From Chloroflexota bacterium (GTDB lineage: Bacteria; Chloroflexota; Anaerolineae; DSLN01): 32,839 nt of DNA. Location of the stretch: assembly GCA_902812335.1 (NCBI GenBank), contig CADDZL010000008.1:1-32839 (forward strand), written 5' to 3'. Below are positions 3,908-21,519 of the stretch, piece by piece. The notes beneath the pieces were generated by a model, which saw nothing but the letters and a program-made list of their open reading frames with translations, had not been told where the DNA came from and ran no database searches. How positions within the stretch are numbered: the stretch's first letter is position 1; the number at the start of each line of letters is the position of its first letter. The position numbers were made by a program, and so were the translations under genes.

Positions 3908-5043
3908 AGCCCCATCTCCTTTGCGATCACCGTCCTGAGTATCTCGGCTGTGCCGCCGCCGTAGAGCAGGAAGCGGGCATCACGGTAATAGCGTTGGGCC
4001 TCGTACTCCATGGCGAAGCCGTAGCTGCCGAAGATGCGTGTGGCTTCGTCAGCGAGCTTGTTGGCCATCTCGCTGGCGAACAGCTTGGCCATCGAAGCCA
4101 GCTTCATATCGGCGCGGCCCTGGTCAATGCGCCAGGCGGACTGATAGACCAGCCAGCGGGCTGCCTCCAATTGCGTCGCCATCTCGGCCAGTTTGTGGCT
4201 GATCGCCTGGAACTGGGCGATGGGCCGGCCGAACTGGATGCGCTCGCGGGCGTACTTCATGGATGCATCCAGTGCGGCCCGTCCCAGCCCCAACCCCAAT
4301 GCCCCGGTCATGGTGCGGACCTCGGCCAGGATCGCGCCCAGGTTGCGGAAGCCGGTGCCCTGCTGGCCCAACAGGTTCTCGGCGGGCACGTGAACGCCTT
4401 CCAGGACCACTTCTGAGGTCTCCGCGGCGCGCACGCCCATTTTCTCGATGCGCCGGCCGACGGTCAGGCCCGGCATACCTCGCTCCACCAGAAACATGTC
4501 AATGCCTTTGAAACCGGCGTCGGGGTCGGTCTTGGCGGCAACGGTGAAGAAATCGGCGACAGTGGCGCTGGTGATCCACATCTTGCGCCCGGTCAGGACC
4601 CAGCCATCGCCTTCGCGCACCGCCCGCGCCTGGATGCCGCCCAGGTCACTGCCAAAGTCGGGCTCGGTCATGGCAATTGTGCCGATCTTCTCGCCGCGCA
4701 GCGCCGGGGTGAGCAGGCGCTGCTTGTGGTCGTTTGTACCGAAGCGATAGACAAAGTCGGTGCCCATCAGGCACTGCATGGCGACGATGGCGGCCAGGCT
4801 GGCCGAGCCATAGGCCAACTCCTCACACATCAGGTTAAAGCTCAGCGTGTCAGCGCCGGACCCGCCGACGGCCTCCGGGTAGCGCAGGCCCAGGTAGCCC
4901 AGATCGGCACAGCGACGGAAGAGCGCCCAGGGGAACTCGCCGCGCTCATCCAGATCGCGCGCGGCTGGCATCACCTCGCGGGCCACAAAAGCCGCCACGC
5001 TCTGGCGGAAGGCGTCTTGTTCGGCAGTCAGGCTGAAGTCCAC
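3904..5043 (-). CDS. Acyl-CoA dehydrogenase family protein
   Basis: A 379-residue flavoprotein with the three-part acyl-CoA dehydrogenase layout. Signatures include MTEPDFGSDLGG (125-136), WITSA (156-160), the helical region with RIQFGRPIAQFQA (268-280) and IFGSYGFAMEYEAQRYYRDAR (337-357). The catalytic Glu of SCAD/MCAD normally sits in a YEGT motif; here the equivalent is Y361-G-G-G-T. E241 in ILAEVRTMTG lies where isovaleryl-CoA dehydrogenase carries its base and may take the role. The GTG at 5043 was chosen because it gives family length and has a GAGGGGG ribosome-binding site. A longer ATG frame would overlap the CoA-transferase by 65 bases. It probably desaturates the CoA-ester made by the adjacent CoA-transferase or mutase, possibly with decarboxylation. 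Confidence 0.88.
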   Translation of the reverse strand: MDFSLTAEQDAFRQSVAAFVAREVMPAARDLDERGEFPWALFRRCADLGYLGLRYPEAVGGSGADTLSFNLMCEELAYGSASLAAIVAMQCLMGTDFVYRFGTNDHKQRLLTPALRGEKIGTIAMTEPDFGSDLGGIQARAVREGDGWVLTGRKMWITSATVADFFTVAAKTDPDAGFKGIDMFLVERGMPGLTVGRRIEKMGVRAAETSEVVLEGVHVPAENLLGQQGTGFRNLGAILAEVRTMTGALGLGLGRAALDASMKYARERIQFGRPIAQFQAISHKLAEMATQLEAARWLVYQSAWRIDQGRADMKLASMAKLFASEMANKLADEATRIFGSYGFAMEYEAQRYYRDARFLLYGGGTAEILRTVIAKEMGL

Positions 5044-6745: not shown

Positions 6746-7929
6746 CAGATCAGCACTTTCCCTGCCGTTTCCCGCTCCCCTGCTGCGCCCGTCTGGCCTT
6801 GTAGTTCTTCCAGGGCAGTGCGCAGACAAGCGATGAAGCGCTCGTTATCCGGACGTGTGCCCACCGTCACCCGCATCCAGTCAGGCATGTAGAAGAAGGC
6901 CAGCGGGCGGACGATCACGCCCATGCGTAGCAGCCGCTCAAACATGATGTCGGCAGGAAAGGGCGGGCGGAAACTGATGAAGTTGGCCTGGCTGGGGATA
7001 TACGGCAGGTCCAACTCGGCCAACCGCTCCTCCAACCAGGGCCGTTCGGCCAGGACAAGTGCCCGCGAGCGGGCGACGTGCTCGGTGTCATCGAGCGCAG
7101 CCAATGCTCCACGCAATGCCGCCAGCCCAAAGTGAAAGGGCAAATGCAGACGCTCAAGATACTCGGCCACATCGCTCCGGGCGAAGGCATAGCCGACGCG
7201 CAGTCCTGCCAGCCCCCAGCTCTTGGAGAAGCTGCGCACCGCGATAACATTCCGGCCCGCGCGCACGAAGTCGGTCGCGTCCCAGGCGTCTTCGGCGAAG
7301 TCGCGGTAGCTCTCATCGAACACGACCAGCGCACCCGGCGCAGCCGTCCGCGTCAGGCCCTCAATCAGCCGGTTAGCCTGTGCCCTGCTGACGACCGTCC
7401 CGGTTGGGTTATTGGGTGTGCAGATGTAGATCAACCGCGTGCGCTCACTGATCGCCGCCAGTACGGCCTCCGGATCGTAATCAAAGCCCGCGGCCCCCTC
7501 CCTTCCCTCGTTAGGGGAGGAGAAGGGAGAGAGGTCGGCATAAACGACCCGCCCTCCCATGCGGCAAGTGAAGATGTCAAGCATGGGAAAGGTGGGCCGC
7601 GAGATGACCACCTCGTCGCCGGTCCGGATGAAGCCCCGCACTATTATGTCAAGTAATTCGGTAGCGCCGTTGCCGGTGGCGACGTTCTCGGCTGCCAGCC
7701 CGACATGGGCTGCCAGCGCCGCCCGCAGTTCGTCATCGGCGACGGCCGGATAGCGGAACAGGTCGGGGAGCGCCCGCTCAATGGCGGCCACAGCCTTCGG
7801 TGAAGGTCCCAAGGGATTCTCGTTCGAGGCCAGCTTGATCACATCGCGCAGGCCGTAACGCCGCTGAATCTCCTCAATAGCTGTGCCAGCAACATATAGC
7901 GGCGCAGTCGCGATGTTCGGGTCAAACAT
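6745..7929 (-). CDS. PLP-dependent aminotransferase, histidinol-phosphate/aromatic type
   Basis: A 394-residue fold-type I aminotransferase of the HisC group. Seen in order: LASNENPLGPSP (33-44), GNGATELLDII (85-95), CTPNNPTG (about 170), the DESY strand motif and the lysine loop SFSKSWGLAGLRVGYA. The loop DLSPFSSPNEGREG comes from a palindromic element (7494-7533) and is absent from relatives. No histidine biosynthesis genes are nearby; the neighbours are aromatic-degradation genes and iorAB. I infer transamination of tryptophan, phenylalanine or tyrosine to the arylpyruvate used by IorAB, but true histidinol-phosphate activity cannot be excluded. The start overlaps the Mo-hydroxylase stop by 8 bases. 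Confidence 0.86.
   Translation of the reverse strand: MFDPNIATAPLYVAGTAIEEIQRRYGLRDVIKLASNENPLGPSPKAVAAIERALPDLFRYPAVADDELRAALAAHVGLAAENVATGNGATELLDIIVRGFIRTGDEVVISRPTFPMLDIFTCRMGGRVVYADLSPFSSPNEGREGAAGFDYDPEAVLAAISERTRLIYICTPNNPTGTVVSRAQANRLIEGLTRTAAPGALVVFDESYRDFAEDAWDATDFVRAGRNVIAVRSFSKSWGLAGLRVGYAFARSDVAEYLERLHLPFHFGLAALRGALAALDDTEHVARSRALVLAERPWLEERLAELDLPYIPSQANFISFRPPFPADIMFERLLRMGVIVRPLAFFYMPDWMRVTVGTRPDNERFIACLRTALEELQGQTGAAGERETAGKVLI
7494..7533. repeat. CT/AG-rich palindromic element inside the aminotransferase gene
   Basis: CCCCCTCCCTTCCCTC on the left faces AGGGGAGGAGAAGGGAG on the right around a short GTT centre. It is translated in frame as a polar loop (about DLSPFSSPNEGREG). 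Same style as 19303-19343. Confidence 0.7.
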
Positions 7930-10201
7930 TCTGGCCTCCCGCTTCTCTCAGTGCCCTCAACACGTTCTCCGGCGTCATCGGCAGCTTCGTCATCAGCACG
8001 CCGGTGGCGTCATAGACCGCATTTGCGATAGCGGCGGCAGTGGGGGTGCCCCCCATCTCGCCGACGCCCTTCGCGCCAAACGGCCCTTCTGGATCGGCCG
8101 TCTCGACGATAATTGTCTCGATAGCCGGCATATCGAGTGCCGTCGGCAACCGGTAGTCGAGAAAGTCGGGATTGAGCACGCGGCCATCGCGCACAAGCAA
8201 TTCCTCGGTCAGCGCATAGCCGAGCCCCATCTGGATGCCCCCTTCGATTTGCCCCTCGACATACATCGGGTTGATGGCCCGCCCGACGTCGTGAGCAGCG
8301 ACCAGGCGCAACACACGCACCCGGCCCGTTTCCATATCAACTTCCACCTCCGCTGCCTGCGCGCCGAAACCGTAGGTGGCCGAAATGTTCCCTTTATAGG
8401 TCTCCTTATTCACCATCTCGGTGGGCGGGTCGTACCAGCCGCGACCCTGGACAACTTCACCACCGGCGCGGAAGTGAAGTGAGCGCACGACCTTGTCGAG
8501 GGCCAGGGAACGCTCCGGCTGGCTTCTGACGAACACCTTACGTCCGCCGGTCGCCAGGTTCTGCGGCGATTCACCCAGCATCTCGGCGGCATGTGCGACA
8601 ATCTGACGCCGTGCATCGTCCGCTGCCAGCCAGGCAGCTTTGCCAGCGATGAACGTGGTCCGGCTGGCATGTACTCCCACGTCCCAGGGCTTGACGTCGG
8701 TATCGTTATTGACCACCGTCACGTCTTCTAACGGAACACCCAACACCTCAGCCACGATCTGGGCCAACGTCACATCCGAGCCCTGGCCGATCTCAGTTGC
8801 GCCGGTGATCAGGCTGACCCGCCCGGAGTCATCCACTTTGACCGTCGCCCCGCAGCCATCCGAGCGGTAAATGCGTGCCCCCCCACCGACGTTGAGCGTA
8901 GCGGCGATCCCAAACCCTCGTCGAACATTGGAGGGAACGTCGTCATCGCTTGCTGCCCGCCGCCTGCTACCCACCGCCTTCAGGCACTCCTCCAACCCAC
9001 AAGTCGTAATCCGCAATCCCTGCGGCGTGGTTTCGTTGGGCCGGTTGGCGTTCTGGAGGCGGAAGCACAGCGGATCGAGCCCCAATTCGCGGGCCAGGTG
9101 CTCCATTGAGCATTCAACAAAGAACGTAGCTTGTGGATTATCGAAGCCGCGCATCGCGCCGGTAGGGGGGTTGTTTGTGTAGACGACATCGGCCTGGAAG
9201 CGCGCGTGCGGCACGCGGTAAAGCGAGGCCACCGTTTCCATCATCACCAGCGGCGTGACCGCCCCCCAGGAGATATACGCGCCGGTGTCGAGGATAGCCT
9301 GCACGTCGCGGACGAGGAGCGTGCCATCGCGACGGGCACCAGAGCGGATGGTCACGCGCAGCGGCTGGCGCACCGGTGCGACGCGAAATTCCTCCTCACG
9401 GCTGAAGGCAATGCGCACAGGCCGGCCGGCCTTGCGTGCCAACAGCGCCGCGATCGGTTCGAAAGGATAGATGTCCAATCCGCGCCCGAAAGCGCCGCCG
9501 ACCGCCGTCTGGATAACACGGATGTCCCGCCCGGGGATACCCAGGGCTTCGGCCAGGTCGCGCCGGAGCAGGAAGGGAATCTGCGTTGTGCTCCACAGTG
9601 TCAGGCGGCCGTCGGGGCTGAAGCTGGCCAGGCAGAAGCTGGTTTCCAGGCAGCTATGAGCCACGTAAGGCAGGATAAAGGTGTCCTCGACGACACCATC
9701 GGCGTCAGCCAGGGCAGCACGGACATCACCATGTTGGTAGCTGTAGCGGGTGAACAGGTTATCAGGCCGTTCGGCATGGACACGAGGCGCATCCGGCGCT
9801 AGAGCTACGATCGGGTCAAAGACCGCCGGCAGGGGTTCGTAGTCGGCGCGGATCAGCTCTAGCGCTTCAAGCGCCGTATCTTCGTCAATTGCCGCCACTG
9901 CTGCCACGGCATCGCCATACCAACGCACGACCTCACCCTTGAGGGGTGTGTTATCGTGGCCGTAGCCGAAGCGATGAGGTGGATTATCGGCCGCGGTGAT
10001 AACGGCTTTCACCCCGGGCAGGCGTTCGGCGCGGCTGGTGTCTATGTGCGTGAGGCGGGCATGAGCATATTGACTATACGAAATCTTGCCCCACAACATG
10101 CCCGACGGCCGCAGGTCATGGCCATACACCACCCGGCCTAACGCCTTGTCCAGCGCATCCAGCTTCGGCGCTCGCTTGCCTATGACCTCGAAGTGATCCA
10201 C
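7922..10201 (-). CDS. Molybdenum hydroxylase large (Moco-binding) subunit, xanthine dehydrogenase family
   Basis: A 759-residue catalytic subunit that binds molybdopterin cofactor. Residues about 1-120 form the ab-hammerhead domain ([22 protein letters not shown] and onward). Later come the Moco loops [10 protein letters not shown] and [15 protein letters not shown], then [15 protein letters not shown]. Near the C-terminus [21 protein letters not shown] holds the catalytic glutamate. The GTG at 10201 was chosen because it follows the small-subunit stop by four bases and begins with family sequence; the longer ATG frame reads through the Fe-S gene in another frame and is low-complexity. Such enzymes hydroxylate N-heteroaromatic rings with water, or reduce 4-hydroxybenzoyl-CoA. 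The FAD partner lacks the extra Fe-S loop of 4-hydroxybenzoyl-CoA reductase, so hydroxylation is preferred. Confidence 0.88.
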
Positions 10202-10205
10202 CGCC

Positions 10206-10232
10206 CTATCCGTTCCCAGAATCTGTTGACAG
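10206..10232. repeat. Dispersed repeat, copy 2 (short form, codes for a protein tail)
   Basis: Same element as 6287-6322 but one CCGTTCAAT unit shorter; minus strand reads LSTDSGNG-stop at the end of the Fe-S subunit. Confidence 0.8.
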
Positions 10233-10685
10233 CGCCACTGACAGCACCGCCTCCACAATCTTGGCATACCCCGTGCAGCGGCACAGGTTCCCGGCCAGCC
10301 CGCCGCGGACCTGGGCCTCGGTCGGATGCGGATGCTCGGCCAGGAGCGCAGCAACGGCCATGATCATCCCCGGCGTACAGAAGCCGCACTGAATTGCCCC
10401 GTGTGTCACAAAGGCTTGCTGGATCGGATGGGGCGTGTTGCCCTGCGCCAGCCCCTCAATCGTGGTGACCGTCGCACCATCGGCGTCCACCGCCAAAACC
10501 AGACAGGCAGCCACCGGGCGGCCATCCAGCAAGACCGTACACGCGCCGCAGTCGCCGCTGTCACAGCCCCGGTGTACCCCGCGCAACCCGATGTGGTTGC
10601 GCACCATATCCAGCAGTGACCAGCGCGGGTCTACGCTCAGCTCGTAAAGGTCGCCATTCACCCTCAGCCGGATCGGGTATCTCAC
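10206..10685 (-). CDS. Molybdenum hydroxylase small subunit, two [2Fe-2S] clusters
   Basis: A 159-residue iron-sulfur subunit that passes electrons between the molybdenum site and FAD. The N-terminal plant-type cluster is formed by [16 protein letters not shown], and the second cluster by QCGFCTPGM together with GNLCRCTGY. The GTG at 10685 starts four bases past the first base of the FAD-subunit stop and matches family starts; an upstream TTG frame would begin inside a palindromic repeat. The C-terminal tail ALSTDSGNG is encoded by a shortened copy of the dispersed repeat. The order FAD subunit, Fe-S subunit, Moco subunit is a complete heterotrimer set. Confidence 0.92.
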
Positions 10686-10686
10686 C

Positions 10687-11592
10687 TCAGTTCCCCGTAG
10701 AGGCAAGCCTTGTGCTTGCCCTGTCTAAAGCCAGCAGTGCCCGCCGTGTCAGCACCTCGACCATCTCGCGCCGGTACCAGGCCGAAGCGCGCACATCGTC
10801 AATCGGGCGCGCTTCGTCTGCGGCCAGGCGGGCCGCCTCCATGATTCGCCTTTCATCCAGCGGTCCACCACCGATGGCCCTCTCTGCTGACTGTGCCCGC
10901 AGTGGCGTCGGCGCGACCGCGCCCAGGACAATCTTCGCCGAAGAGCACAGACCATAGCTAAAGGTGACGGCAGCAGCCACACCGACGATGGCGATGTCCA
11001 TAGCCTCACGCGGCGTGTGCTTGAGGTAGATGGCTGTCGCGCCGTGTTCAGGAGGGGGCACCCTCACCTCGAGCAGCAGTTCATCACTCGCCAGAACGGT
11101 CTGGCCGGGGCCGGAGAAGAAGTCTTCCAACGCCACCGTCCGCCGGCCATGCGGACCGGCGATATGCGCCTGCCCGCTCAGCGCGATCAGGGGTGGCGCC
11201 AGGTCGGCCGAGGGCGCAGCGTTGCACAGGTTGCCCCCGACCGTTGCCAGGTTCCGAATTTGCACACTGGCCATCATCGCCGCGGCCTGAGCTAGAGCCG
11301 GGTAGTGGGCCCGCACATCCGGTGACGCCATGACCTCAGACACCGTCACCAACGCGCCCAGGCGCAGTCCCCTGCTCTCATCGTAGCTCAGCCCATGCAG
11401 CTCCGGGATGCGCTTGATATTGATGAGGCAGCCGGGTGCCAGCCGGCCCGTTCGCATCTTCAGCAACAGGTCGGTGCCCCCCGCCAGGGCGCGGGCGCAG
11501 CCAACCGGGTTAAAGCCCGGTACTGGTTGCCCGGCCAACAGGCCGAGGGCTTCATCCAGGCTTAGCGGAGCATAGTAGTCAAAGGGTTTCAT
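10687..11592 (-). CDS. Molybdenum hydroxylase medium (FAD-binding) subunit
   Basis: A 301-residue FAD subunit of the xanthine dehydrogenase/CO dehydrogenase type. FAD motifs are ALAGGTDLLLKM (near 35-46) and TVGGNLCNAAPSADLAPPLIAL. The roughly 40-residue cysteine-rich loop that carries an extra [4Fe-4S] cluster in 4-hydroxybenzoyl-CoA reductase (HcrB) is absent: QIRNLATVGGN runs straight on. The segment PVPGFNPVG ahead of the AGGTD motif comes from the palindrome at 11503-11525, and the tail DRASTRLASTGN from another at 10697-10725. The ATG at 11592 lies inside the iorB end (14-base overlap). An upstream GTG at 11613 is possible but has no better ribosome-binding site. Confidence 0.88.
   Translation of the reverse strand: MKPFDYYAPLSLDEALGLLAGQPVPGFNPVGCARALAGGTDLLLKMRTGRLAPGCLINIKRIPELHGLSYDESRGLRLGALVTVSEVMASPDVRAHYPALAQAAAMMASVQIRNLATVGGNLCNAAPSADLAPPLIALSGQAHIAGPHGRRTVALEDFFSGPGQTVLASDELLLEVRVPPPEHGATAIYLKHTPREAMDIAIVGVAAAVTFSYGLCSSAKIVLGAVAPTPLRAQSAERAIGGGPLDERRIMEAARLAADEARPIDDVRASAWYRREMVEVLTRRALLALDRASTRLASTGN
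10697..10725. repeat. Palindromic element coding for the FAD-subunit C-terminus
   Basis: GGCAAGC (10702-10708) and GCTTGCC (10714-10720) pair around a short loop, with a GTAG end on the left. It resembles half of the larger element at 14362-14413. It is read in frame as DRASTRLAS. Confidence 0.6.
11503..11525. repeat. Palindromic element inside the FAD-subunit gene
   Basis: ACCGGGTTAAAGCCCGGT (11504-11521) matches the core at 5790-5807 except at two positions, and both are followed by ACTG. It is translated as VPGFNPVG, against VPGFSPVG in the CoA-transferase, so the same reading frame is used in two unrelated proteins. Confidence 0.85.
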
Positions 11593-12148
11593 GTCGCTGC
11601 GCTGCCTCAGCACCGCGCTCGAATGCCCGCCGGTTCAGATCGCGGAAGCGAGGTGGGCTGATACGCTGGAGCGTAGCGGCAACGGCTTCGGCCGGGAACA
11701 GGCTGGCCGGATGCGCTGTCGCGAAGCCCAGCAGGACGACATTAGCTACCGCCGGCCCACCGCACTCCAGCGCGATGCGGTCGGCGTCCACCTGGAGCAA
11801 GCTGATACCCAGGGTATCGAGCAGTGCGCTGACCTCCTCTCCTGCCATCCAACCTCCAGAGGGGACATTCACACAGCACAGCCCGCCTGGCCGGGCAAAG
11901 GCCAGATGACGGGTGGCCTCAGTTGCGTCGAGCCCCAGGACCAGATCGGCGGTGCCTTTGCGCACCAGCGGGCTGCGGTAGGGTCCGATCTTGAGGTGCG
12001 CCACAACCTGGCCGCCGCGCTGGCTCATGCCATGCGTCTCCGACCCGATCACGTCATCGCCCATCGCCAGCGCAACCTGCGCCAGGACCCTGCTGGCGAA
12101 TAACACGCCCTGCCCACCCAAGCCAGCCACAATCACCCGGGCATTCAT
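11579..12148 (-). CDS. iorB: Indolepyruvate:ferredoxin oxidoreductase beta subunit
   Basis: A 189-residue protein of the pyruvate:ferredoxin oxidoreductase gamma-type domain family. It opens with VIVAGLGGQGVLFASRVLAQ and carries SETHGMSQRGGQVVAHLKIG, both typical of IorB. With IorA it oxidatively decarboxylates aryl-2-oxoacids (indolepyruvate, phenylpyruvate) to aryl-acetyl-CoA and reduces ferredoxin. The ATG at 12148 overlaps the IorA stop (TAATG), fixing the start. Its 3' end overlaps the Mo-hydroxylase FAD gene. Placement between the reductase genes and the Mo-hydroxylase suggests it feeds acyl groups, low-potential electrons, or both into the pathway. Confidence 0.9.
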   Translation of the reverse strand: MNARVIVAGLGGQGVLFASRVLAQVALAMGDDVIGSETHGMSQRGGQVVAHLKIGPYRSPLVRKGTADLVLGLDATEATRHLAFARPGGLCCVNVPSGGWMAGEEVSALLDTLGISLLQVDADRIALECGGPAVANVVLLGFATAHPASLFPAEAVAATLQRISPPRFRDLNRRAFERGAEAAQRHETL

Positions 12149-14100
12149 TAGAGAACTACCTCTGCCGGGCCGTGGGCCCTGGCCAGGGCCTCGTCTGCCA
12201 GCGGCACAATCGCCCCTTTGTAGCAAGCCTCGATGCATTGGCCACAGTCAATGCACGTGCGCCGATCAATCTCGACCTTACCAGCGGCGACATTGAGGAC
12301 CAGCGCCGGGCACTCGAATGCTACCAGACAATACTTGCACCCATCGCAGGCCTCCGTCACCGTGACCGGGACGGGATGCTGGCATACCGGCAGCGGGTCA
12401 TAAAGCACACAGGCTCGCTCGGCGATGACAACTGCTATCCCACCTTCCTCGGCGCGAACATAGCGGCCAGCCTCCTCTAGAAGCGCCTGGAAAGCCCCAA
12501 GCTGATAGGGGTCCATGCGGCGGACAAAGCGCACACCACAGGCTTTCGCCAGTTCCTCCAGCGACAGCGGTTGTGCCGCTCGGCCGTCCGCCAGCAGCGC
12601 CGACTCAGCCGTCGGTTGCATACCGGTCATCGCAGTCGTGCCATTATCGAGGATGACCAGGACAAAACGCGCGCCGGTGTGTACAGCGTTGGCAAGAGCC
12701 GGCAGGCCGGCGTGCACAAAGGTCGAATCGCCGATGGTGGCAACGATCGGACGCCTGTCGCCGTCCAGGTGATAGGCCTGGTAGAAGCCGTCGGCCATGC
12801 TAATGGCCGCGCCCATATCCAGGCAAGTGTCCACTCCCCGCAGATTCAGCCCAAGGGTATAACAGCCTATGTCCGAAGGCAGAATGGCCTGCGGTCCGAA
12901 GACACGCTTGATCGCATAAAAGGACGAACGATGCGGGCAGCCGGGGCACAAGCGCGGTCCGCGCGGCGGCAGCTTAAGCGCGGCCACGGCTGCATCCAGC
13001 GCCTCAGTCGGAGCCGGCGGCAGCTTCGCCAGGCCACCATCGGCCAGAACGCGCGCCAGAAGGCTATAAATGACCTCCGGCGACAGCTCGCCTGCACCCG
13101 GCACAGTCCCGTTCAGCCGGCCGGAAACCTTACGCCGGTCGGCGATCTGCAATTCGATGGCGGCGTCGGGCTCCTCCAGCACCAAGACCCGCTCGTAACG
13201 GGCAATGAAGTCGGCGACCAGGCGGCGCGGCAGCGGGTAGGGCGTGCCGATCTTGAGCACCGGCATGTCCAACCCCAACTCATCCAGCAGATCGAGGACA
13301 GTGACAAACGGCACGCCGCTGGCGATGATACCGATGCGTGTAGCCGCGTTCGACATCCGTGTCGTGCTGTTCAGCGGCGAGGCTTCAAAGACCCCCTCGA
13401 CCGCCTTCAGCTTTTCATTCAGTTCCACATGCAGACCATAGCGGAAGCGTGGTGTGGCTGCCCAGCGGGCTGGCTCGCGCTTGAAGTGCGGTGAACGCCC
13501 CAGGGTTTCTAGCGTGCCCAACTCAATGTTCTGAACCGCATGGCATACTCGCGTCGTGGGCCGTAGCAGCACAGGTAGGCGGAATTGCTCCGACAGGCGG
13601 AACGCTTCGCCGACCATCTCCCTGGCCTCACGCGGCGTGCTGGGGTCGAGAACGGGCAACTTGGCGAACAGTGCGAACAGGCGCGTGTCGGCCTCGGTCT
13701 GCGAGGAGTGTGGGCCGGGGTCGTCGCCCACCACAATGACCAGACCGCCGACCACGCCGGTATAGGCCGCGTTAAGCAGCGCATCGGCGGCGACGTTCAG
13801 CCCGGCCTGTTTCATCGCTACGGCTGCGCGCAGGCCGGTCATGCTGGCCGCCAGCGCAACCTCCAGAGCTACCTTCTCGTTTGTGGACCACTCGGTATAT
13901 AGAGCCTGCCCTGAGTCGTGCGAAGGGTCCAGCCCCATAGCGGCGCGGAAACGGATAACCTCGGCCAGCACCTCACTCGCCGGCGTGCCAGGATACGACG
14001 TCACCACCCGCACGCCGTTTTCCACCAGCCCGCGAGCGATGGCTCCATTGCCCAGCAACACCTCCGTCCGTCCGCTCCTCATAATGTCAGATACCCTCAT
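12148..14100 (-). CDS. iorA: Indolepyruvate:ferredoxin oxidoreductase alpha subunit
   Basis: A 650-residue thiamine-diphosphate enzyme subunit. The N-terminal third is the pyrimidine-binding domain (SYPGTPASEVL, TEWSTNEKVALEVA). The middle has CPGCPHRSSFYAIKR and the ThDP motif GDSTFVHAGLPALANAV followed by DNGTTAMTGMQP. The last 70 residues form a ferredoxin domain with C-x2-C-x2-C-x5-C (CDGCKYCLVAFEC) and C-x2-C-x2-C-x3-C (CIDCGQCIEAC), enough for two [4Fe-4S] clusters. The start at 14100 overlaps the preceding stop; an in-frame ATG at 14082 with GAGGG upstream is an alternative. Besides making arylacetyl-CoA, it is the only visible source of reduced ferredoxin for the adjacent benzoyl-CoA reductase, a role filled by KorAB in Thauera. 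Confidence 0.92.
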   Translation of the reverse strand: MRVSDIMRSGRTEVLLGNGAIARGLVENGVRVVTSYPGTPASEVLAEVIRFRAAMGLDPSHDSGQALYTEWSTNEKVALEVALAASMTGLRAAVAMKQAGLNVAADALLNAAYTGVVGGLVIVVGDDPGPHSSQTEADTRLFALFAKLPVLDPSTPREAREMVGEAFRLSEQFRLPVLLRPTTRVCHAVQNIELGTLETLGRSPHFKREPARWAATPRFRYGLHVELNEKLKAVEGVFEASPLNSTTRMSNAATRIGIIASGVPFVTVLDLLDELGLDMPVLKIGTPYPLPRRLVADFIARYERVLVLEEPDAAIELQIADRRKVSGRLNGTVPGAGELSPEVIYSLLARVLADGGLAKLPPAPTEALDAAVAALKLPPRGPRLCPGCPHRSSFYAIKRVFGPQAILPSDIGCYTLGLNLRGVDTCLDMGAAISMADGFYQAYHLDGDRRPIVATIGDSTFVHAGLPALANAVHTGARFVLVILDNGTTAMTGMQPTAESALLADGRAAQPLSLEELAKACGVRFVRRMDPYQLGAFQALLEEAGRYVRAEEGGIAVVIAERACVLYDPLPVCQHPVPVTVTEACDGCKYCLVAFECPALVLNVAAGKVEIDRRTCIDCGQCIEACYKGAIVPLADEALARAHGPAEVVL

Positions 14101-14335
14101 CGCCCGCTGCTTTAAGCCGCGTGTAGATAACCCGATACGTCATACACGCCGCGAAATGGCAGTCGGCGCACTCCGGATAGGCCGTCTCCGGCACAAGGGA
14201 CTCCAGATGGACCTCAAGCCCCAGCGACCGATAGACTTCTTCTGCCTCGGCACAGCGGTCCGGGTCGGCAATGAAGCGTCGGGTCCAGCCAGCCACGGCC
14301 AGCGCCTGAGCGCGGTCTTCGCTCTCATGTAGCAT
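14087..14335 (-). CDS. Small cysteine-containing protein of unknown function
   Basis: An 82-residue acidic protein with no signal peptide or membrane segment. The C-terminal half has a compact cysteine motif, C-x2-C-x4-C (ECADCHFAAC), followed by MTYRVIYTR. The pattern could bind zinc or an iron-sulfur cluster, but three cysteines and one His (CHF) is all that can be seen. A GAGGG ribosome-binding site precedes the ATG, the gene lies 12 bases after the bcrD-like stop, and it overlaps iorA, so it is very likely real and co-expressed. I do not recognise a family with certainty. Its position between benzoyl-CoA reductase and IorAB suggests a role in cluster assembly, electron transfer or regulation. 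Confidence 0.75.
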   Translation of the reverse strand: MLHESEDRAQALAVAGWTRRFIADPDRCAEAEEVYRSLGLEVHLESLVPETAYPECADCHFAACMTYRVIYTRLKAAGDEGI

Positions 14336-14347
14336 CCTGCCCCACCC

Positions 14348-15202
14348 TCAGCCCGCCTGTTGTAGGGGCCACCCTTGCGGTTGCCCCAGGGCAGGCACAA
14401 AGCCCGCCCCTACGGCCCGCTTCGCCATGCGCAAATGTCCCAGGAGCGCCGCTCCCAGGGCTCCAGCGTACTCGGCCTCCGGCGAGATGTTCAGCCGGAC
14501 ATCCAGGCGCGCCTCCAACGAGTGCACCATGCCCACATTGCGGCTCACCCCGCCCGTCAGCGTGATCTCCGGCTCAACCGTACCCATCTGCCGCACCAGG
14601 CTGACGATGCGGTCCGTCAACGAGTCATGTACGCCGGCCAGAATGTCCTCGACCCGCGCCTCATGGCTCACCAGGTTGATCACCTCAGACTCGGCCAACA
14701 CAGCGCAGACGCTGCTGATCGGCGTCTTCGCCTGCGAACGCAGTGCCACTGGCCCAATGCTTTCCAGGTCCAACTCCATTGCCCTGGCAACCCGTTCCAG
14801 GAAGCGGCCGGCCCCGGCAGCGCAGCGGTTGTTCATGCGGAAGGACTTAACCCGTCCGTTGGCCTCGACGCGGATGGCACGGGTATTTTGAGCGCCGATG
14901 TCGAGCACGGTGCGCGTGCCGGGGAACAGGTGGATCGCGCCACGCGCGTGACAGGTGATGTCGGTGATCTGGATATGGCGGAAGGCCACCTGATAGCGGC
15001 CCCAACCGGTGCTGGCCACATACGCTACGTCATCACGCTCCATGCCGGCATTGGACAGTGCCTGATCAAAGGCACGCTCGGCGGCCTCGGCCAGAAACGC
15101 CCCTGTTTCGGTCTCGCTACTCCCCACAATACGGCCGCTCTGGTCAACCAGGATGGCCTTCGTCGAGCGCGAGCCCACATCTATTCCGGCTACGATGCTC
15201 AT
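14348..15202 (-). CDS. bcrD: Benzoyl-CoA reductase ATPase subunit (BcrD/BadG-like)
   Basis: A 284-residue member of the BadF/BadG/HgdC ATPase family (acetate kinase-Hsp70 fold). It opens with [13 protein letters not shown] (5-17) and keeps both cluster cysteines, C127 in [11 protein letters not shown] and C166 in [11 protein letters not shown]. These would bind a [4Fe-4S] cluster shared across the ATPase dimer. The phosphate loop reads [10 protein letters not shown] (101-110), not the usual [10 protein letters not shown] found in the paralogue next door, so the two are not equivalent. The last 20 residues ([20 protein letters not shown]) derive from a palindromic element. The start overlaps the bcrA stop (ATGA). 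Two different ATPase paralogues favour benzoyl-CoA reductase over 2-hydroxyacyl-CoA dehydratase, whose activator is a homodimer. Confidence 0.85.
14362..14413. repeat. Palindromic element coding for the BcrD-like C-terminus
   Basis: GTAGGGGC at 14362-14369 pairs with GCCCCTAC at 14406-14413, with further pairing inside. It is translated in frame as the C-terminal tail of the ATPase subunit. Confidence 0.75.
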
Positions 15203-16026
15203 GCCTGCCCCCTGATATCTGCTGCCGCCAGGGCCTGCTCGCTGAGCATACCAGCCCGCTCATAGGCGAAGACGGCCGCGCCTATCGCACCCATGAAGTG
15301 CGAATCGTCACTCACGTTAAGTGGCATATTCAACACGTCCTGTAGCGCTGCAACCATGCCCTTGTTGCGGCTGACCCCGCCGGTGAAGGTAATCTCAGCG
15401 TCCAGGCCCACCCGACGCAGCAGGCCGACACTGCGCCGGGCGATGGAGTAGTGCACCGCCCTGAGAACGTCCTCGCGCTTGCGTCCCCACGCCAAATGCG
15501 ACAGGATCTCAGACTCCACGAAAACCGTGCACACATTGGTGATGTGGATGCCGTCCTGGCCGCGCAGACTGACGTCGCCGATCTCTTCCAGCGTCAACCC
15601 CATCGTCGTGGCAGCGGCCTCCAGGAAGCGGCCCGTACCGGCGGCGCACTTGTCGTTCATGGCGAAGTCAAGCACCTCGCCCCGGCTATCCACCTTGATG
15701 CCTTTCGTATCTTGCCCGCCGATGTCGAGCACAGTCTGGGTACCGGGGAAAGCAAAGTTTGCGCCTTTGGCATGACACGAGATCTCAGTGATCTGCGTGT
15801 CGCCGAAGGTGACCTTATAGCGGCCGTACCCCGTGCCGACGATATAGACGACATCGTTCCGTTGGACGCCGGTCTCCTCCAACAACAGGTCGAAGGCGCG
15901 CTCGGCTGCCTTGACGATGTTGGCTCCGGTGTGGGTCAGGGATCGCCCGACGATACGCTTGTTGTCATCAATCAGCACAGCCTTGGTTTGCGTGGAGCCT
16001 ACATCCACGCCAGCGACATAGTACAT
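15199..16026 (-). CDS. bcrA: Benzoyl-CoA reductase ATPase subunit (BcrA/BadF-like)
   Basis: A 275-residue ATPase of the BadF/BadG/HgdC family. Nucleotide-binding motifs are [14 protein letters not shown] (4-17), [10 protein letters not shown] (101-110) and [13 protein letters not shown] near residue 215. The [4Fe-4S] cysteines are C127 in [12 protein letters not shown] and C166 in [11 protein letters not shown]. In class I benzoyl-CoA reductase the two ATPase subunits spend ATP to push electrons from ferredoxin to the catalytic subunits, which reduce the aromatic ring to a cyclohexadiene. Its motifs are closer to consensus than those of the downstream paralogue. The assignment of A versus D follows gene order and is tentative. 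Confidence 0.87.
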
Positions 16027-16078: not shown

Positions 16079-17362
16079 TTACGCAGCCCGCGCTGCGACG
16101 TACTTGCGGTGCTCCAACGATTCAAAGAAAGCGTCTATCCGGTTCTTCATCTGCGCATCGGAGAAGTAGCGCGGGTCGATCAGGTCGGACTCGATCAGCA
16201 ATGTGGGAATGTCAAGCTCCTTACTGAACTCCTCACGGAAGTCGGCTTCACCAGCAGCGAAGGAGCGACACGACTTGACCGAGTGGATCACGATGCCGTC
16301 AGCGTTGTAGTCCCTGGCGTAATCCAGGAGTAACTGCCGCCGTCGTGGCAGGCTCCAATTCACATAGCAGTTCAGTGTATATTCGGCGATGCTCTCCAGC
16401 GGGTTGTCGGGGTCATGATAGCGCCCGGTCACATCCCACAACCCGCCGACCTTCGAGTAGGTCGAGGCCACTGTGACGGCACCCCAACTCTTGAACATAT
16501 CCCAGAAGGTGCGGAACTTGGGCCAGGGCGGCGGCCCTTCCAAGACAATGCGAAACTTCTCCTGAGGCACCGGCCCCAAGCCGTATATCAGCCGCTCCTG
16601 AATCTCCTCCCAGACTGCCTGGAAATACTGCATGGCTTGGGGCGTGCCGCGCAACGTGTAGATCGGGGCCATCAAGAAAACCGCCTCGAAGTAGGCATCG
16701 AGTGGCGATGGGCTGTGCTTGCAGGCGTGCAGGATTTTGACCCATAACTCCTCTGCCTGCCGGGCCAGTTCCAGCGTCTCGCGCAGCCGGTCGGGGTCGA
16801 ACTTCGTTCCGGTCACCTCCTCGCACACAGTGATAAGTTCCTTCAATTGGCCGACAACGTAGGCAATATCCTCGCGGCGGATGTGGTCCAGCCGGTTATA
16901 AGGCGAGTCCAGGACGAAGATAGGGCAGCCATAATACTCCGCCAGCGCTTCCCACCACTTGATGTAGGTGGTACAGCCGGCGTAATTGCACACCAGCAAG
17001 CTGGGCGGTGGTATCTGGGCGAAGGAGGTTTTGTTGCCCGATAGGAGTAAGCCGATATCGTTCTTAACGTAGCCACACACGTCGGCGCTATAGCCGGCGT
17101 CCTCTGAACGCAGCAGGTACTGAGGCGAAACGTGCTTGATGCCACACTGTAGCGCGTTAACCTCTGGAAAGCACACGTGGAAGCCGAAGGCTCGCATCAA
17201 CTCGCCGACGTTGCCGCTGATGAACAGATAGGCGACCGGCTCGCCCTTCTGTGGCGCTTCGGACAGCGCGCGATAGTAATCGGTCATCATTTCCTTCTGC
17301 AACCAGCGCCCTGCGCCCTGGTGCTTCAATTCCGGCAGCGTTTTCCCGTCCTGGTTATCCAT
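16079..17362 (-). CDS. bcrB: Benzoyl-CoA reductase catalytic subunit B (BcrB/BadE-like)
   Basis: A 427-residue protein of the HgdB/FldB/BcrB catalytic family. Visible signatures are AYLFISGNVGELMRAFGFHVCFPEV near 38-62, LLVCNYAGCTTYIKWWE with cysteines likely to bind the active-site cluster, and DGIVIHSVKSCRSFAAGEAD near 355-375. The ATG at 17362 has a GGAGGG ribosome-binding site. A longer in-frame start at 17503 would run through an intergenic repeat and into bcrC and is rejected. With BcrC it forms the module that binds benzoyl-CoA and receives electrons. It follows bcrC after an 82-base gap that carries a repeat. Confidence 0.88.
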   Translation of the reverse strand: MDNQDGKTLPELKHQGAGRWLQKEMMTDYYRALSEAPQKGEPVAYLFISGNVGELMRAFGFHVCFPEVNALQCGIKHVSPQYLLRSEDAGYSADVCGYVKNDIGLLLSGNKTSFAQIPPPSLLVCNYAGCTTYIKWWEALAEYYGCPIFVLDSPYNRLDHIRREDIAYVVGQLKELITVCEEVTGTKFDPDRLRETLELARQAEELWVKILHACKHSPSPLDAYFEAVFLMAPIYTLRGTPQAMQYFQAVWEEIQERLIYGLGPVPQEKFRIVLEGPPPWPKFRTFWDMFKSWGAVTVASTYSKVGGLWDVTGRYHDPDNPLESIAEYTLNCYVNWSLPRRRQLLLDYARDYNADGIVIHSVKSCRSFAAGEADFREEFSKELDIPTLLIESDLIDPRYFSDAQMKNRIDAFFESLEHRKYVAARAA

Positions 17363-17401
17363 AGCACCCTCCGCTCTTCTGCCATCCGACCTGCAAGGTC
17401 T

Positions 17402-17436
17402 TATCCATTCAATCTGTTCCCCGAACCCACTGACAG
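17402..17436. repeat. Dispersed repeat, copy 4 (intergenic, diverged)
   Basis: Begins TATCCATTCAATCTGTTCCC and ends CACTGACAG, lying between bcrC and bcrB. More diverged than the other copies. Confidence 0.7.
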
Positions 17437-17444
17437 TATCCTCA

Positions 17445-18611
17445 TCATGAGTAGAAGAGGATCGATTCCACAAAGGTTTCGACCTGGCTCCGCACCAACT
17501 CAAAGACGCTCATCTTCTCCTCAAACTCCAGCGCCAGGTGAGGGAGGTGTTCGCGGTCCAGGGCATCCTTCAACAGAACGTAGTCAAATTGGGCCGGATC
17601 GCAGAACTTGGCCCAGGTAAAGATCACCCCATCCACGTTGAGCGCATGACACTTCTCAAGGAAGCGCCGTGTGCGCACCTTCGGCCCATCGTAGCGAATG
17701 GCTGAGGGGACGCTATGCCCGATGAACGTGGCCGCCAGCGCCGTCAAAGCGTCGGGCAAGCTGCCGTTCAAAGACACAGGCATCTCCAACCAGCGCCGGC
17801 CGATAGCGAGATCATCATCCAGGATATAGCAGCCGGCCTGCTCAATGCCCATGATGACCTCAATGGGCGGCTGCTCGCAGAATGCACCATCCAAGATCAC
17901 GCGGATGCGGTCCATCGGCCTGGCGTCGCGTGCCTCCAGTTCAGGCAGAACCTGGCGCAGCAAGGCGTTATGCTCCTCTTTAGGCATCACGCCACCGGCG
18001 CGGACTAGTGCGTAGGTCTCGGTCATACTGACCTTCTCCGGCGCCCGGCGCTTGAGCTGGTAGAGTTGCCCCAGGAGCGCCCGATTCTCGTTGTAGACCG
18101 CAATGGAATGTCGTAGCGCCTCCTCGGTGACGGGCACACCACCCAGGGCTTCGAGGGCCTGGCGCAGCCGCTCATATTCCGAGCGCAAGTAGGGCACGGC
18201 GTTGGCTGAGTAGATATTCTGGGCAAAGTGAATAAAGAACGACAACTGGCTGGGGAAATTGCGCTGCCAGACGCCGGACAGGTTGCGGGCGACATCGCAG
18301 ATCGAGGGGAATATCAGGCCATCGAAGGCATCCAGCCGGCCGGTCAGCCCCAGTTCGAGCGTTGAACGCGAGATCGAGCAGATGAACGATTGGATGCGCG
18401 AATCGGCGTGGTCAATCTCGATTGAAGGGCCACCGCCGTGGAGCGCCACTGGCAACATGCCGGCAGCATGGATGATCTCCTCTGGCACATACACCGGGAA
18501 GCAGCCGACAACCTTGCGGCCGGGATGCGCCTCTTTCCAGCGCCGCACCGCCCCAAACGTCGGGTCCTGAAACATCTGCTTGCAGTTCTCAATGACTGCC
18601 TCAAGGTCCAT
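17445..18611 (-). CDS. bcrC: Benzoyl-CoA reductase catalytic subunit C (BcrC/BadD-like)
   Basis: A 388-residue protein of the HgdB/BcrC family. Signatures include VGCFPVYVPEEIIHAAGMLPVALHGG (35-60), SFICSISRSTLELG, DGLIFPSICDVARN, and near the C-terminus WAKFCDPAQFDYVLLKDALD and EFEEKM. Cysteines in SFICSIS, PSICD and KFCDP are candidates for cluster and active-site ligation. It heads the bcrC-bcrB-bcrA-bcrD order known from Thauera aromatica. The start has an AGGAGAAG ribosome-binding site lying just after a long stem-loop (18627-18675). Homologues that dehydrate 2-hydroxyacyl-CoAs share the fold; the neighbouring dch-like and oah-like genes favour ring reduction. Confidence 0.88.
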   Translation of the reverse strand: MDLEAVIENCKQMFQDPTFGAVRRWKEAHPGRKVVGCFPVYVPEEIIHAAGMLPVALHGGGPSIEIDHADSRIQSFICSISRSTLELGLTGRLDAFDGLIFPSICDVARNLSGVWQRNFPSQLSFFIHFAQNIYSANAVPYLRSEYERLRQALEALGGVPVTEEALRHSIAVYNENRALLGQLYQLKRRAPEKVSMTETYALVRAGGVMPKEEHNALLRQVLPELEARDARPMDRIRVILDGAFCEQPPIEVIMGIEQAGCYILDDDLAIGRRWLEMPVSLNGSLPDALTALAATFIGHSVPSAIRYDGPKVRTRRFLEKCHALNVDGVIFTWAKFCDPAQFDYVLLKDALDREHLPHLALEFEEKMSVFELVRSQVETFVESILFYS

Positions 18612-18675: not shown

Positions 18676-19466
18676 CTATTGATCCCTCCACACCGGCCGG
18701 CGCTTCTCAAGGAAGGCCGCCAGCCCCTCATGCGCGTCGGCTGTCGCCATCAGGTCTTCAAGGTACAGCCGCTCTACCGTGGCCAGCGCCTCATCCAGGG
18801 GCCTGGCAGCAATGCGCATGGCCTGCTTGGTCAGCACCAGCGCCGCGCGGCTCAGCCCGCTCAATTGGCCGACCAACTGCTCGACGGCGGCCGGGAACCC
18901 GGCCGCCGGCACTATCCGGTTGACCAACCCCAGTTGAGCGGCTTCGGCAGCGGAGATGACCTCACCCATGAGCAGAAGTTCATTGGCCTTCTTCGGGCCG
19001 ATGAGGGCTGGCAGGCGGATGCAGGCATAAGGCGCGATCACCCCCAATTTGATCTCCGGCTGCCCAAAGGTCGCTGCGTCCGAGGCCACAACCAGATCAC
19101 AGGCCAGCGCCAGTTCGCAGCCACCGCCCAGCGCTGCCCCCTGGACAGCCGCCACCGTTGGGATCGCCAGCGCCTCAAGTTGTCGAAAGATCCGATCGAA
19201 GGCTCGCACCATCTCACAACCCGCTCCGCTGTGTGATCCGCCACATCCACCCCGGCCGAGAAGGCCCGCCCTTGCGCACCGACGACCAGCAGTTTGGCCG
19301 GAGACCTCTCCCCTTTCAGGGGAGGCGAGAGAGAGGAGAGGTCCGAAAGCGCAGCACTGATCTCCTCCATCATGGCAATGTGGAGGATGTTGAGCGGTGG
19401 CCGATTAAGCGTCAGCCGGGCGATGCCGCCCTCGATCCGCCACTGGATGAATTCAAGCGCCCTCAT
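18676..19466 (-). pseudogene. dch: Cyclohexa-1,5-diene-1-carbonyl-CoA hydratase-like gene with a one-base frameshift
   Basis: Two overlapping frames make one enoyl-CoA hydratase of about 263 residues. The first (from ATG 19466) gives RLTLNRPPLNILHIAMMEEI and GRAFSAGVDVADHTAERV. The second (onward from about 19212) gives MVRAFDRIFRQLEAL, AAVQGAALGGGCELALACD and FGQPEIKLGV. The break lies near 19213-19222, where adding one base would restore a DEM or GEM-type junction before VRAF. The NRPPLN...MMEE and SAGVDV.DHT patterns are those of Dch/BamR, which hydrates the diene formed by benzoyl-CoA reductase. The start overlaps the oah stop (ATGA). A palindromic element (19303-19343) also adds a loop. 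Real inactivation, recoding or a sequencing error are all possible. Confidence 0.82.
19303..19343. repeat. Palindromic element inside the dch-like gene
   Basis: GACCTCTCC (19303-19311) pairs perfectly with GGAGAGGTC (19335-19343), with an inner CCCCTTTCAGGGG. It is translated as DLSSLSPPLKGERS, a loop not expected at this point in the crotonase fold. Confidence 0.8.
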
Positions 19467-20527
19467 GCTGGTTCAGTCCCGTTCAGCGGCTTGCCGCACA
19501 CACCGCAATAGACGAATCCTGCCGGCAACGCCTCAGCGCCACAGGCTGGGCAGGTTTGGGTGTAGGGCCCCCAGACAAACTCGCTCGAATCGCCCTCCGC
19601 AGCGCGCCGGCGCAGACCAACATAATCGGCGGGCCGCTTCTGGACGAAGGCACGCATACCCTCCAACGGCTCCCAGGATGTGTAATGCACCGCCAGCCAG
19701 TCGCGGGCGTGGCCGATGGTCTGATGCCAGGCCAGGTCTTTCCAGAAATTGGCGTGCTGCTTGGTATAGCGGCTACACTCGGCAAACTTGTTCACCAGCC
19801 GCTCACACATCGCATCCACTGCCTGGTCCAGCCGGCTCAGGTCAATGCGGTAGCCGTTCTCGCCCTTCTGGGCCCAGGCGATCTGCTCCGGCGTGGCGCG
19901 TTCGATGAAGCTCCCTTCCCTGACGACCGAAGGCACCACCTGATTGACCAGGCCCCAATCGAGGGCCTGATAAGCGGAGATGCGTTCATTGAGCAGCAAC
20001 ATCTGCCGTGCCCGCCGGTCGCCGACGAAGATCGGCAGCCATTGGGTCGCGCCGCCGCAGGCTACGCTCCCCACCCCGGTTCCCACCTGGCCGATGTAGG
20101 CGTGCTCAGCCATGATGGAGAGATCACAAGCCAGATGCGACTCATTGCCGCCGCCAACAGCCATGCCGTTAAGCCGCGCGATCACCGGCTTGCCACAGTT
20201 CAGGATGCTTTCGATATAAGCCTTGAACAGGCCCATGTACTTCCAATAATGGCGGGGGGCTGTCGTGTACTCGGCTGCGTACTCCTTGACATCGCCACCG
20301 GTGCAGAAGGCGCGATCACCAGCGCCTGTGAAGACCACCACAGCCACGCTGTCGTCGAAGGCAGCGTCCTGGAAGGCGGTGGCCAGTTCAACCAACGTCG
20401 GGGTGGCATAGGCATTGTAGGCGTGGGGACGGTTGATCGTAATGCGCGCCACCCAGTCACCCTTGTGATAGAGGATGTCTTTGAAGTTGTGGCTCTCAGC
20501 CGGGCGGGGCCCAAAGATGCCCATCAT
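19463..20527 (-). CDS. oah: 6-oxocyclohex-1-ene-1-carbonyl-CoA hydrolase-like protein (Oah/BamA) with C-terminal zinc ribbon
   Basis: A 354-residue crotonase-family protein resembling the ring-opening hydrolase of the benzoyl-CoA pathway. Shared features are ITINRPHAYNAY, FCTGGDVKEYAAEYT, YWKYMGLFKAYIESILNCGKPVIARLNGMAVGGGNE and the helical C-terminal part with HYTSWEPLEGMRAF. The known enzyme adds two waters and opens the ring to 3-hydroxypimeloyl-CoA. After about residue 325 there is an added zinc-ribbon-like module, C-x2-C-x11-C-x2-C (CPAC...CGVC), not part of the family core as I know it. An AGGAGGT ribosome-binding site precedes two adjacent ATGs (20527, 20524); either may be used. It is the first gene of the long minus-strand array. 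Confidence 0.82.
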   Translation of the reverse strand: MMGIFGPRPAESHNFKDILYHKGDWVARITINRPHAYNAYATPTLVELATAFQDAAFDDSVAVVVFTGAGDRAFCTGGDVKEYAAEYTTAPRHYWKYMGLFKAYIESILNCGKPVIARLNGMAVGGGNESHLACDLSIMAEHAYIGQVGTGVGSVACGGATQWLPIFVGDRRARQMLLLNERISAYQALDWGLVNQVVPSVVREGSFIERATPEQIAWAQKGENGYRIDLSRLDQAVDAMCERLVNKFAECSRYTKQHANFWKDLAWHQTIGHARDWLAVHYTSWEPLEGMRAFVQKRPADYVGLRRRAAEGDSSEFVWGPYTQTCPACGAEALPAGFVYCGVCGKPLNGTEPA

Positions 20528-20649: not shown

Positions 20650-21519
20650 TCAGGTGGCGACCGCCACATAGCGGTGATTCTCCTCTCGCATTAGCAACTG
20701 CCGGTCGAGAGCACGGTCCACGAACTCATTGGCCGGACCGGCCAGGAGGTCGTGATACTCGTGTAGCAATTGGGCCGCCTGTTCGCCCAGCCAGTCGTCA
20801 GGCAGGAGTTCAGGCGGCAGATTGGGGTCTACATAGGGCAATGAACGGTAGTCGTGAACTACACGAAAACGGCGGGCGAAGGCGGCACCCTCGGTGCACT
20901 CGCTACCATCGGCCCGCTGGAAACGAAGGTGCGACGGGAATGGGGTGTAGCGACGGATGAAGTCGGCATAGGCCCGATTGAGCCCTTTCAGGTTCCAGCA
21001 GCGGGCGACAAGCTCGCGGTCATCCCCTAAGCTCTCGCGCCGACCTGTGAATATCTCCACATAAGACCGGATGCGCAGGCTCTCAAGCAGATCCTCCACC
21101 TCCGGGCGCAAGTCGCGTGGCGAAATCCAGGTGGCGGTGTTCAACATGCCGAACCCCAGCCAGATGAGCCGCCGGCGCAGCCTGTCACGCAGGTGGCGCT
21201 TGGACTCCGGAATGGAGTAGGTCAGGATGCGCCAGCAACCATCCCAGGGCTCCTGGCGCGGGTGGAAGATGTGCTGTTCGCCTTCGATCATGAGCTTGCG
21301 ACCGCGTGGGGTGAGCGAGTAGAAGCTGAAGCGACCGTCGTGGCGGACGGTGAACCAGCCACGGCGGGCCATACGGGAGAGTGTTGAGCGTACTGCCTGC
21401 TCCGAAACGCCCAGGCAATCCATCAGCTTAATCAGGCCCGCCGTGGGGGCCTCACCCCCCCGCGGGTGGATGTAGTCGCCGTAGAGGGTGAAGATTAGAT
21501 CCTGGGTGCGTGACCCCAT
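20650..21519 (-). CDS. paaX: PaaX-family transcriptional regulator
   Basis: A 289-residue repressor of the PaaX family, which typically responds to aryl-CoA esters such as phenylacetyl-CoA. The N-terminus is a winged-helix domain: LIFTLYGDYIHPRGG (9-23), SEQAVRSTLSRMARRGW (39-55). The central PaaX domain (WRILTYSIPESKRHLRDRLRRRL, LGFGMLNTATWISPRDL) and a C-terminal domain ending near HEYHDLLAGPANEF follow. It has its own promoter and two operator-like repeats upstream and a terminator downstream, so it is a separate unit just ahead of the array it probably controls. The inducer is not readable from sequence; benzoyl-CoA or an arylacetyl-CoA are the obvious candidates. Confidence 0.9.
   Translation of the reverse strand: MGSRTQDLIFTLYGDYIHPRGGEAPTAGLIKLMDCLGVSEQAVRSTLSRMARRGWFTVRHDGRFSFYSLTPRGRKLMIEGEQHIFHPRQEPWDGCWRILTYSIPESKRHLRDRLRRRLIWLGFGMLNTATWISPRDLRPEVEDLLESLRIRSYVEIFTGRRESLGDDRELVARCWNLKGLNRAYADFIRRYTPFPSHLRFQRADGSECTEGAAFARRFRVVHDYRSLPYVDPNLPPELLPDDWLGEQAAQLLHEYHDLLAGPANEFVDRALDRQLLMREENHRYVAVAT

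Follow-up and report, generated by a model that had tools for sequence, protein, structure and literature searches.

A small CxxC protein family encoded near benzoyl-CoA reductase genes in Chloroflexota and other bacteria, with a candidate accessory role

What might a protein of 82 residues with a pair of closely spaced cysteines be doing between the genes of a putative ATP-driven benzoyl-CoA reductase (BCR) and those of a putative indolepyruvate:ferredoxin oxidoreductase? Few reductions in biology are as demanding as that catalyzed by benzoyl-CoA reductases, enzymes at the heart of the anaerobic breakdown of aromatic compounds. The window, i.e., the entire 32,839-nucleotide stretch analyzed here (contig CADDZL010000008.1 of a Chloroflexota bacterium), codes on its minus strand for this protein, hereafter P82 (14087..14335, stop codon included), behind four genes that resemble those for the class I enzyme. 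These code for two activase subunits, bcrD-like (14348..15202; TIGR00241, 233 bits, over the cut-off; TIGR02261 benz_CoA_red_D, 187 bits, below the cut-off of 312.85) and bcrA-like (15199..16026; TIGR00241, 272 bits, over the cut-off; TIGR02259, 204 bits, below the cut-off of 578), and for two reductase subunits, bcrB-like (16079..17503; TIGR02260, 384 bits, cut-off 486.55) and bcrC-like (17445..18611; TIGR02263, 366 bits, cut-off 421.15). Next downstream of P82 lie an iorA-like gene for the alpha subunit (12148..14100; TIGR03336, 630 bits, cut-off 650.9) and an iorB-like gene for the beta subunit (11579..12238; PF01558, 113 bits, with the specific beta models below their cut-offs), both on the minus strand.

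The same strand carries further genes that might belong to the benzoyl-CoA pathway, namely an oah-like ring hydrolase (19463..20527; best NCBIfam match TIGR03200 dearomat_oah, 226 bits, below the cut-off) and a dch-like dienoyl-CoA hydratase (18676..19466; TIGR03189, 131 bits, C-terminal half, below the cut-off), as well as a PaaX-type regulator (20650..21519; PF07848, PF20803 and PF08223 over their cut-offs), relatives of which occur near P82 in several Chloroflexota loci. The dch-like gene is broken: a tblastn search with the homologue from locus L018 matches two frames that meet near 19215–19218, which reflects a genuine frameshift or else a mistake in the assembly. From the bcrC-like gene to a thiolase gene at 697 the recognized genes, some of them named by eye, run in one direction. 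Among them, at 7922–11613 on the minus strand, are molybdenum hydroxylase subunits with all models below the cut-off, their closest models being 4-hydroxybenzoyl-CoA reductase (alpha), glyceraldehyde dehydrogenase (gamma) and xanthine dehydrogenase (FAD subunit).

A frame this short might be fortuitous, the more so as its ribosome-binding site, in the 15 nucleotides before the ATG (TGAGGGTGGGGCAGG), is moderate and not good as the first-pass annotation of the window had it. The frame begins with ATG 12 nucleotides past the stop of the bcrD-like gene, its upstream neighbor, ends with TGA and codes for MLHESEDRAQALAVAGWTRRFIADPDRCAEAEEVYRSLGLEVHLESLVPETAYPECADCHFAACMTYRVIYTRLKAAGDEGI. Its codon-position GC content of 0.71/0.48/0.70 is similar to that of the adjoining genes, homologues are present in other genomes (E down to 4.8e-18 in a single-sequence search), and six close pairs of these homologues give dN/dS values of 0.08–0.26, so that the frame stands beyond chance. 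P82 is thus a real gene under purifying selection; with homologues across several phyla and invariant residues among them, a spurious frame is already refuted and may be practically dismissed. The annotation had both the coordinates and the reality of the gene right, the strand being minus, and its overlap with iorA holds for one of two possible starts: with iorA beginning at 14100 the 3′ end of P82 overlaps it by 14 nucleotides, whereas the alternative in-frame ATG at 14082 leaves no overlap.

The annotation had also called the protein unrecognized, and the family libraries concur. P82 on its own matched no family in Pfam, NCBIfam or PHROGs at E values up to 10, and the matches of 14 of its relatives never fell below E 0.02 in Pfam or E 0.05 in NCBIfam, none of them recurring in a second member. 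Sequence and profile searches of the PDB yielded no convincing relative; the profile matches below E 0.01 were designed or repeat proteins matched over 16 positions and were set aside. Among 100 relatives of the same class, the single-sequence search matched 10 genomes, one of them falsely (G061, E 0.0018, a 797-residue frame that the P82 profile missed), and the profile search found nine. Beyond these, P82 is present in 7 of 400 genomes of the phylum, in 20 of 63 genomes of Desulfarculia, the class of Desulfocarbo, and in 1 of 385 genomes of the class of the alphaproteobacterium G493, which has two copies. Nineteen loci came from contigs of named genomes assigned to Chloroflexota, Desulfarculaceae, Desulfocarbo indianensis, other “Deltaproteobacteria” records, Zixibacteria, KSB1 and Rhodospirillaceae. 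Viral contigs held no relatives, and plasmids held neither P82 nor a bzdO match; nine BcrB matches on plasmids had 25–28% identity, several being annotated as members of the 2-hydroxyacyl-CoA dehydratase family. A search of the open-licence literature by title and abstract, a scope outside which older operon papers fall, turned up no recognizable account of a P82-like protein. Sequence comparison places P82 in a small bacterial family absent from Pfam, NCBIfam, PHROGs and the PDB.

The gene neighborhoods of 44 copies from 43 genomes were compared, same-genome duplicates being excluded; manual scoring was used for two loci (L027 and L036), and in two others (L031 and L043) the automated nearest BCR match differs from the bzd genes listed for them. 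In six copies, including that of the window, P82 follows a bcrD gene by at most 21 nucleotides or overlaps it, and these six come from Chloroflexota, KSB1 and an alphaproteobacterium. In seven others it follows, within 120 nucleotides, a gene for a BzdV-like NAD(P)H:ferredoxin oxidoreductase, and in eight a gene for a GNAT acetyltransferase lies directly ahead. P82 is thus a CxxC protein encoded behind bcrD, BzdV-like or GNAT genes in several phyla. In two further loci (L038 and L077) it adjoins a series of AFOR-family, FeS, HdrA and FlpD genes, which, from gene order, we take to be a putative class II (bam) cluster. As separate observations, bcrD and P82 of locus L014 are kept apart by an insertion (2923–3782) that consists of a PIN-domain gene and another gene on the opposite strand, and residues 747–820, at the C-terminal end of a BzdV-like protein in L016 (6100–8619), match DUF7508 with 29.1 bits against a cut-off of 26.

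This survey also bears on the possibility that P82 is an accessory subunit of IorAB, as might be suspected from the window, where P82 overlaps or nearly overlaps iorA. IorA is found near P82 in just two of the 44 copies (the window and L018) and is adjacent in the window alone, which largely refutes this reading and makes it very improbable. Thus, of the position between bcrD and iorA that the annotation had considered telling, the BCR side has held up and the IorAB side has not. The annotation had further named, as an outcome that would count against it, homologues lying mostly away from iorAB or bcr genes. Formally this is half the case: BCR genes are within the flanks read of 20 of the 44 copies and lacking from those of 24, but 16 of the 24 are in genomes with a BCR elsewhere, the other 8 being in genomes where none was found.

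The distribution across the 100 class relatives supports the view that P82 tracks BCR rather than IorAB. P82 is restricted to BCR-carrying genomes in this set: it occurs in 9 of the 10 genomes with a BCR and in none of the 90 others (Fisher p 5e-12, uncorrected for relatedness). Nine of the ten have a class I enzyme, of the Bcr-like kind in six and of the Bzd type in three (two with bzdO over the cut-off and one with bzdNO at a contig end), while in the tenth, G012, a BamB-like protein shares 84% identity with the one from L038, the next match being far lower at 262 bits. The exception without P82 is G046, whose 4.2-kb bcr contig stops behind bcrA and ahead of bcrD; in G092 the bcr contig stops behind bcrD, and P82 is at the end of another contig. 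The P82-positive relatives span six families, and the BCR-less members of families f34 and f37 are also without P82. In a tree of BcrB-type proteins, that of the window and nine others form one clade, the Bcr-like one, and eight bzdO-type proteins a second, each with support of 100/100, other paralogues falling outside both. A later, larger tree (short search, no bootstrap) retains both clades, and a protein of G401 and the two canonical BcrB proteins of G493 join that of the window. On a separate point, the BamB-like protein of G012 belongs to a class II-like bam series (locus L153), and its 84% identity to a Desulfarculus protein suggests gene transfer involving this Chloroflexota genome.

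Outside this phylum the picture is more mixed, such that the link between P82 and BCR can be considered well supported in Chloroflexota and partly so beyond. A BCR is present in 35 of the 43 P82 genomes; in the remaining eight none was found, the search in six of these, all Desulfarculia, being confined to BcrB and BamB. Among the 63 Desulfarculia, scored here for P82 and BamB-like proteins, 13 have both, 5 BamB alone, 7 P82 alone and 38 neither. All their P82 copies fall in an apparent block of 26 genomes, delimited by handle order, within which the association between P82 and BamB is absent (13/5/7/1 in the same order, p 0.63). Several of these copies sit among genes that, as named by eye, seem unrelated to aromatic metabolism, including housekeeping or cell-division genes. 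These patterns, together with the eight genomes where no BCR was found, are what might be expected if P82 had a general function and owed its place in aromatic-degradation islands only to gene transfer and a shared lifestyle. Against this stand the tight spacing behind bcrD in three phyla, the absence of P82 from the 90 BCR-less Chloroflexota and the second copy in G493, where a Bcr-like operon has P82 21 nucleotides behind its activase gene. A general function hence appears unlikely. The canonical bcr operon of G493 has two GNAT genes and no P82 within the 20 kb read.

Several observations on these genomes may be recorded in their own right. Desulfocarbo indianensis, isolated from a benzoate-oxidizing enrichment according to passages of PMC4559730, combines BzdP/BzdQ-type activases, a BzdV-like oxidoreductase and P82 in one locus (L037, 5562–10228) without bzdN or bzdO; the best bzdO match in its genome scores 121 bits and a BamB-like protein 1056 bits. 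BcrB-like paralogues of a clade of their own turn up repeatedly in P82 genomes (L052, L102, L103, L106 and L043 at 10107–12202) and also in nine Desulfarculia loci (L138, L141 and L143–L149). Behind such a paralogue L052 and L043 each have just one activase gene, and ahead of it L052 has an FAD/Fe-S oxidase.

The GNAT genes raise the main rival to a dedicated role in BCR systems. In Rhodopseudomonas the repressor BadM is released by acetamidobenzoates, the products of the GNAT enzyme BadL, and the passages of PMC6191541 that describe this also mention BadL homologues in Magnetospirillum and Geobacter. One recognizable GNAT group (profile E 2e-51 or better) is found in the flanks of 18 of the 44 P82 copies, once as a fragment, and directly ahead of eight, among them Desulfarculia loci without BCR genes nearby; members of this group close to P82 or BCR genes could be candidate BadL-like enzymes. 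P82 might then be the regulator or partner of an adjoining signal-making GNAT, sensing a redox state or a ligand or modulating the GNAT itself, and such a regulatory setting would be in keeping with the BadL homologues of other genera and with an Rrf2-family regulator present in the window. However, 26 of the 44 copies are without such a GNAT in the flanks read, a DNA-binding fold is not apparent in P82, and a comparison of the P82 and GNAT profiles returned a probability of 1.1%. This reading therefore deserves to be taken seriously, even if it is rather unlikely. The related idea that P82 is a relative of the C-terminal half of the GNAT, prompted by inspection by eye and weak structural matches (Z about 3), drew no support from the same hhalign probability. 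As to the GNAT proteins themselves, their alignment shows conserved residues across phyla in members from 16 loci.

The residues conserved in P82 narrow its likely chemistry. In an alignment of 43 members (from Chloroflexota, Desulfarculia, other “Deltaproteobacteria”, Zixibacteria, KSB1 and one alphaproteobacterium), W17, R27, G39, C56 and C59 are invariant, L12, G16, Y35 and T72 are each found in 42, and a conserved histidine was looked for and not found. The C-x2-C-x4-C motif that the annotation had stressed is present in the window (C56, C59 and C64), but the family as a whole keeps the CxxC pair, the third cysteine being shared by just 8 of the 43; nine of the 43 domains have two cysteines only. 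AlphaFold2 models of the window protein (pLDDT 74.5, pTM 0.58) and of the most central relative (pLDDT 78.6, pTM 0.63) both show a helix-strand-helix-strand-short helix-strand arrangement, with the CxxC at the N-terminus of the short helix, this region being the least certain part of the core (blocks with pLDDT about 54–62). From these models we infer a small alpha/beta fold for P82, in which the CxxC opens the short helix. Searches of the PDB with the two models gave no coherent fold (best Foldseek E 0.25 and 0.95; best Z 5.7 and 3.6), and neither had a clear match to a thioredoxin-like or metallochaperone fold.

These features weigh on whether P82 could be a small electron carrier of the ferredoxin or rubredoxin type, passing electrons from IorAB or BzdV to the reductase, as would fit the electron-transfer role first proposed for it. 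Its conserved cysteines, its place directly after the BzdV-like oxidoreductase in 7 of the 44 copies and its place after bcrD and before iorA in the window speak for such a role. However, such a site calls for at least four conserved cysteine ligands, and C56 and C59 are the sole invariant cysteines; given the domains with just two cysteines and the lack of a conserved histidine, an Fe-S or rubredoxin site within a single copy is excluded as a trait of the family. Some bzd operons, moreover, already have a separate ferredoxin (L043 at 4171–4464, and L079; named by eye). A carrier of this type is hence quite improbable. Instead, an invariant pair that begins a helix and has no other fixed ligands beside it would suit a redox-active dithiol, or else a metal or Fe-S site to which two copies contribute.

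The reading we favor, at a probability of roughly 40%, is that P82 is an accessory CxxC protein dedicated to BCR systems. It would act through its CxxC pair, either as a dithiol/disulfide or as a half-site for a metal or Fe-S center shared by two copies, and its target would be the activase/reductase or the oxidoreductase that donates electrons to it. The activase, the BzdV-like oxidoreductase and the class II cluster have oxygen-sensitive, low-potential Fe-S chemistry in common, and an assembling, protecting or gating role is therefore favored. Of the roles that the annotation had raised, those in assembly or as an adaptor may still hold. P82 may thus keep this machinery competent through assembly, repair or redox gating, as opposed to bulk electron carriage. 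A bolder and decidedly doubtful extension would have P82 serve both of the unrelated BCR classes, the ATP-driven class I and the tungsten class II, as the first conserved helper common to the two, maturing, repairing or gating their low-potential electron input. If true, this would point to a problem that both classes share, of which we know of no prior description. P82 may be seen as a candidate for a missing part in making, protecting or controlling BCR enzymes, one absent from the family libraries searched, and as a candidate marker for locating BCR in uncultured bacteria.

A parallel may be drawn with three known systems. The likeness to BadL/BadM of Rhodopseudomonas palustris (passages of PMC6191541) lies in a GNAT near BCR genes, and the difference in that none of the profiles tried identifies P82 as a GNAT or as an Rrf2 regulator. 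With the class II (Bam) system the loci share the placement of P82 beside the AFOR-family/FeS/HdrA/FlpD series in L038 and L077 and the BamB-like proteins of 13 of the 20 Desulfarculia P82 genomes; in NCBIfam, however, the BamB-like protein matches a single model, one for aldehyde ferredoxin oxidoreductase, and scores below the cut-off there. With respect to class I, the four subunits of the window differ from canonical Bcr in that all score below the Bcr model cut-offs, whereas bzdN, bzdO and bzdQ of L031 pass the NCBIfam cut-offs and are of the Bzd type. Candidate counterparts of P82 in Azoarcus are bzdS, bzdT and bzdU, of which BzdT is mentioned in passages of PMC2988823 that do not include its sequence. 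The P82 loci resemble class I operons in their layout, with P82 placed directly behind bcrD-like genes or within bzdNOPQ-BzdV operons.
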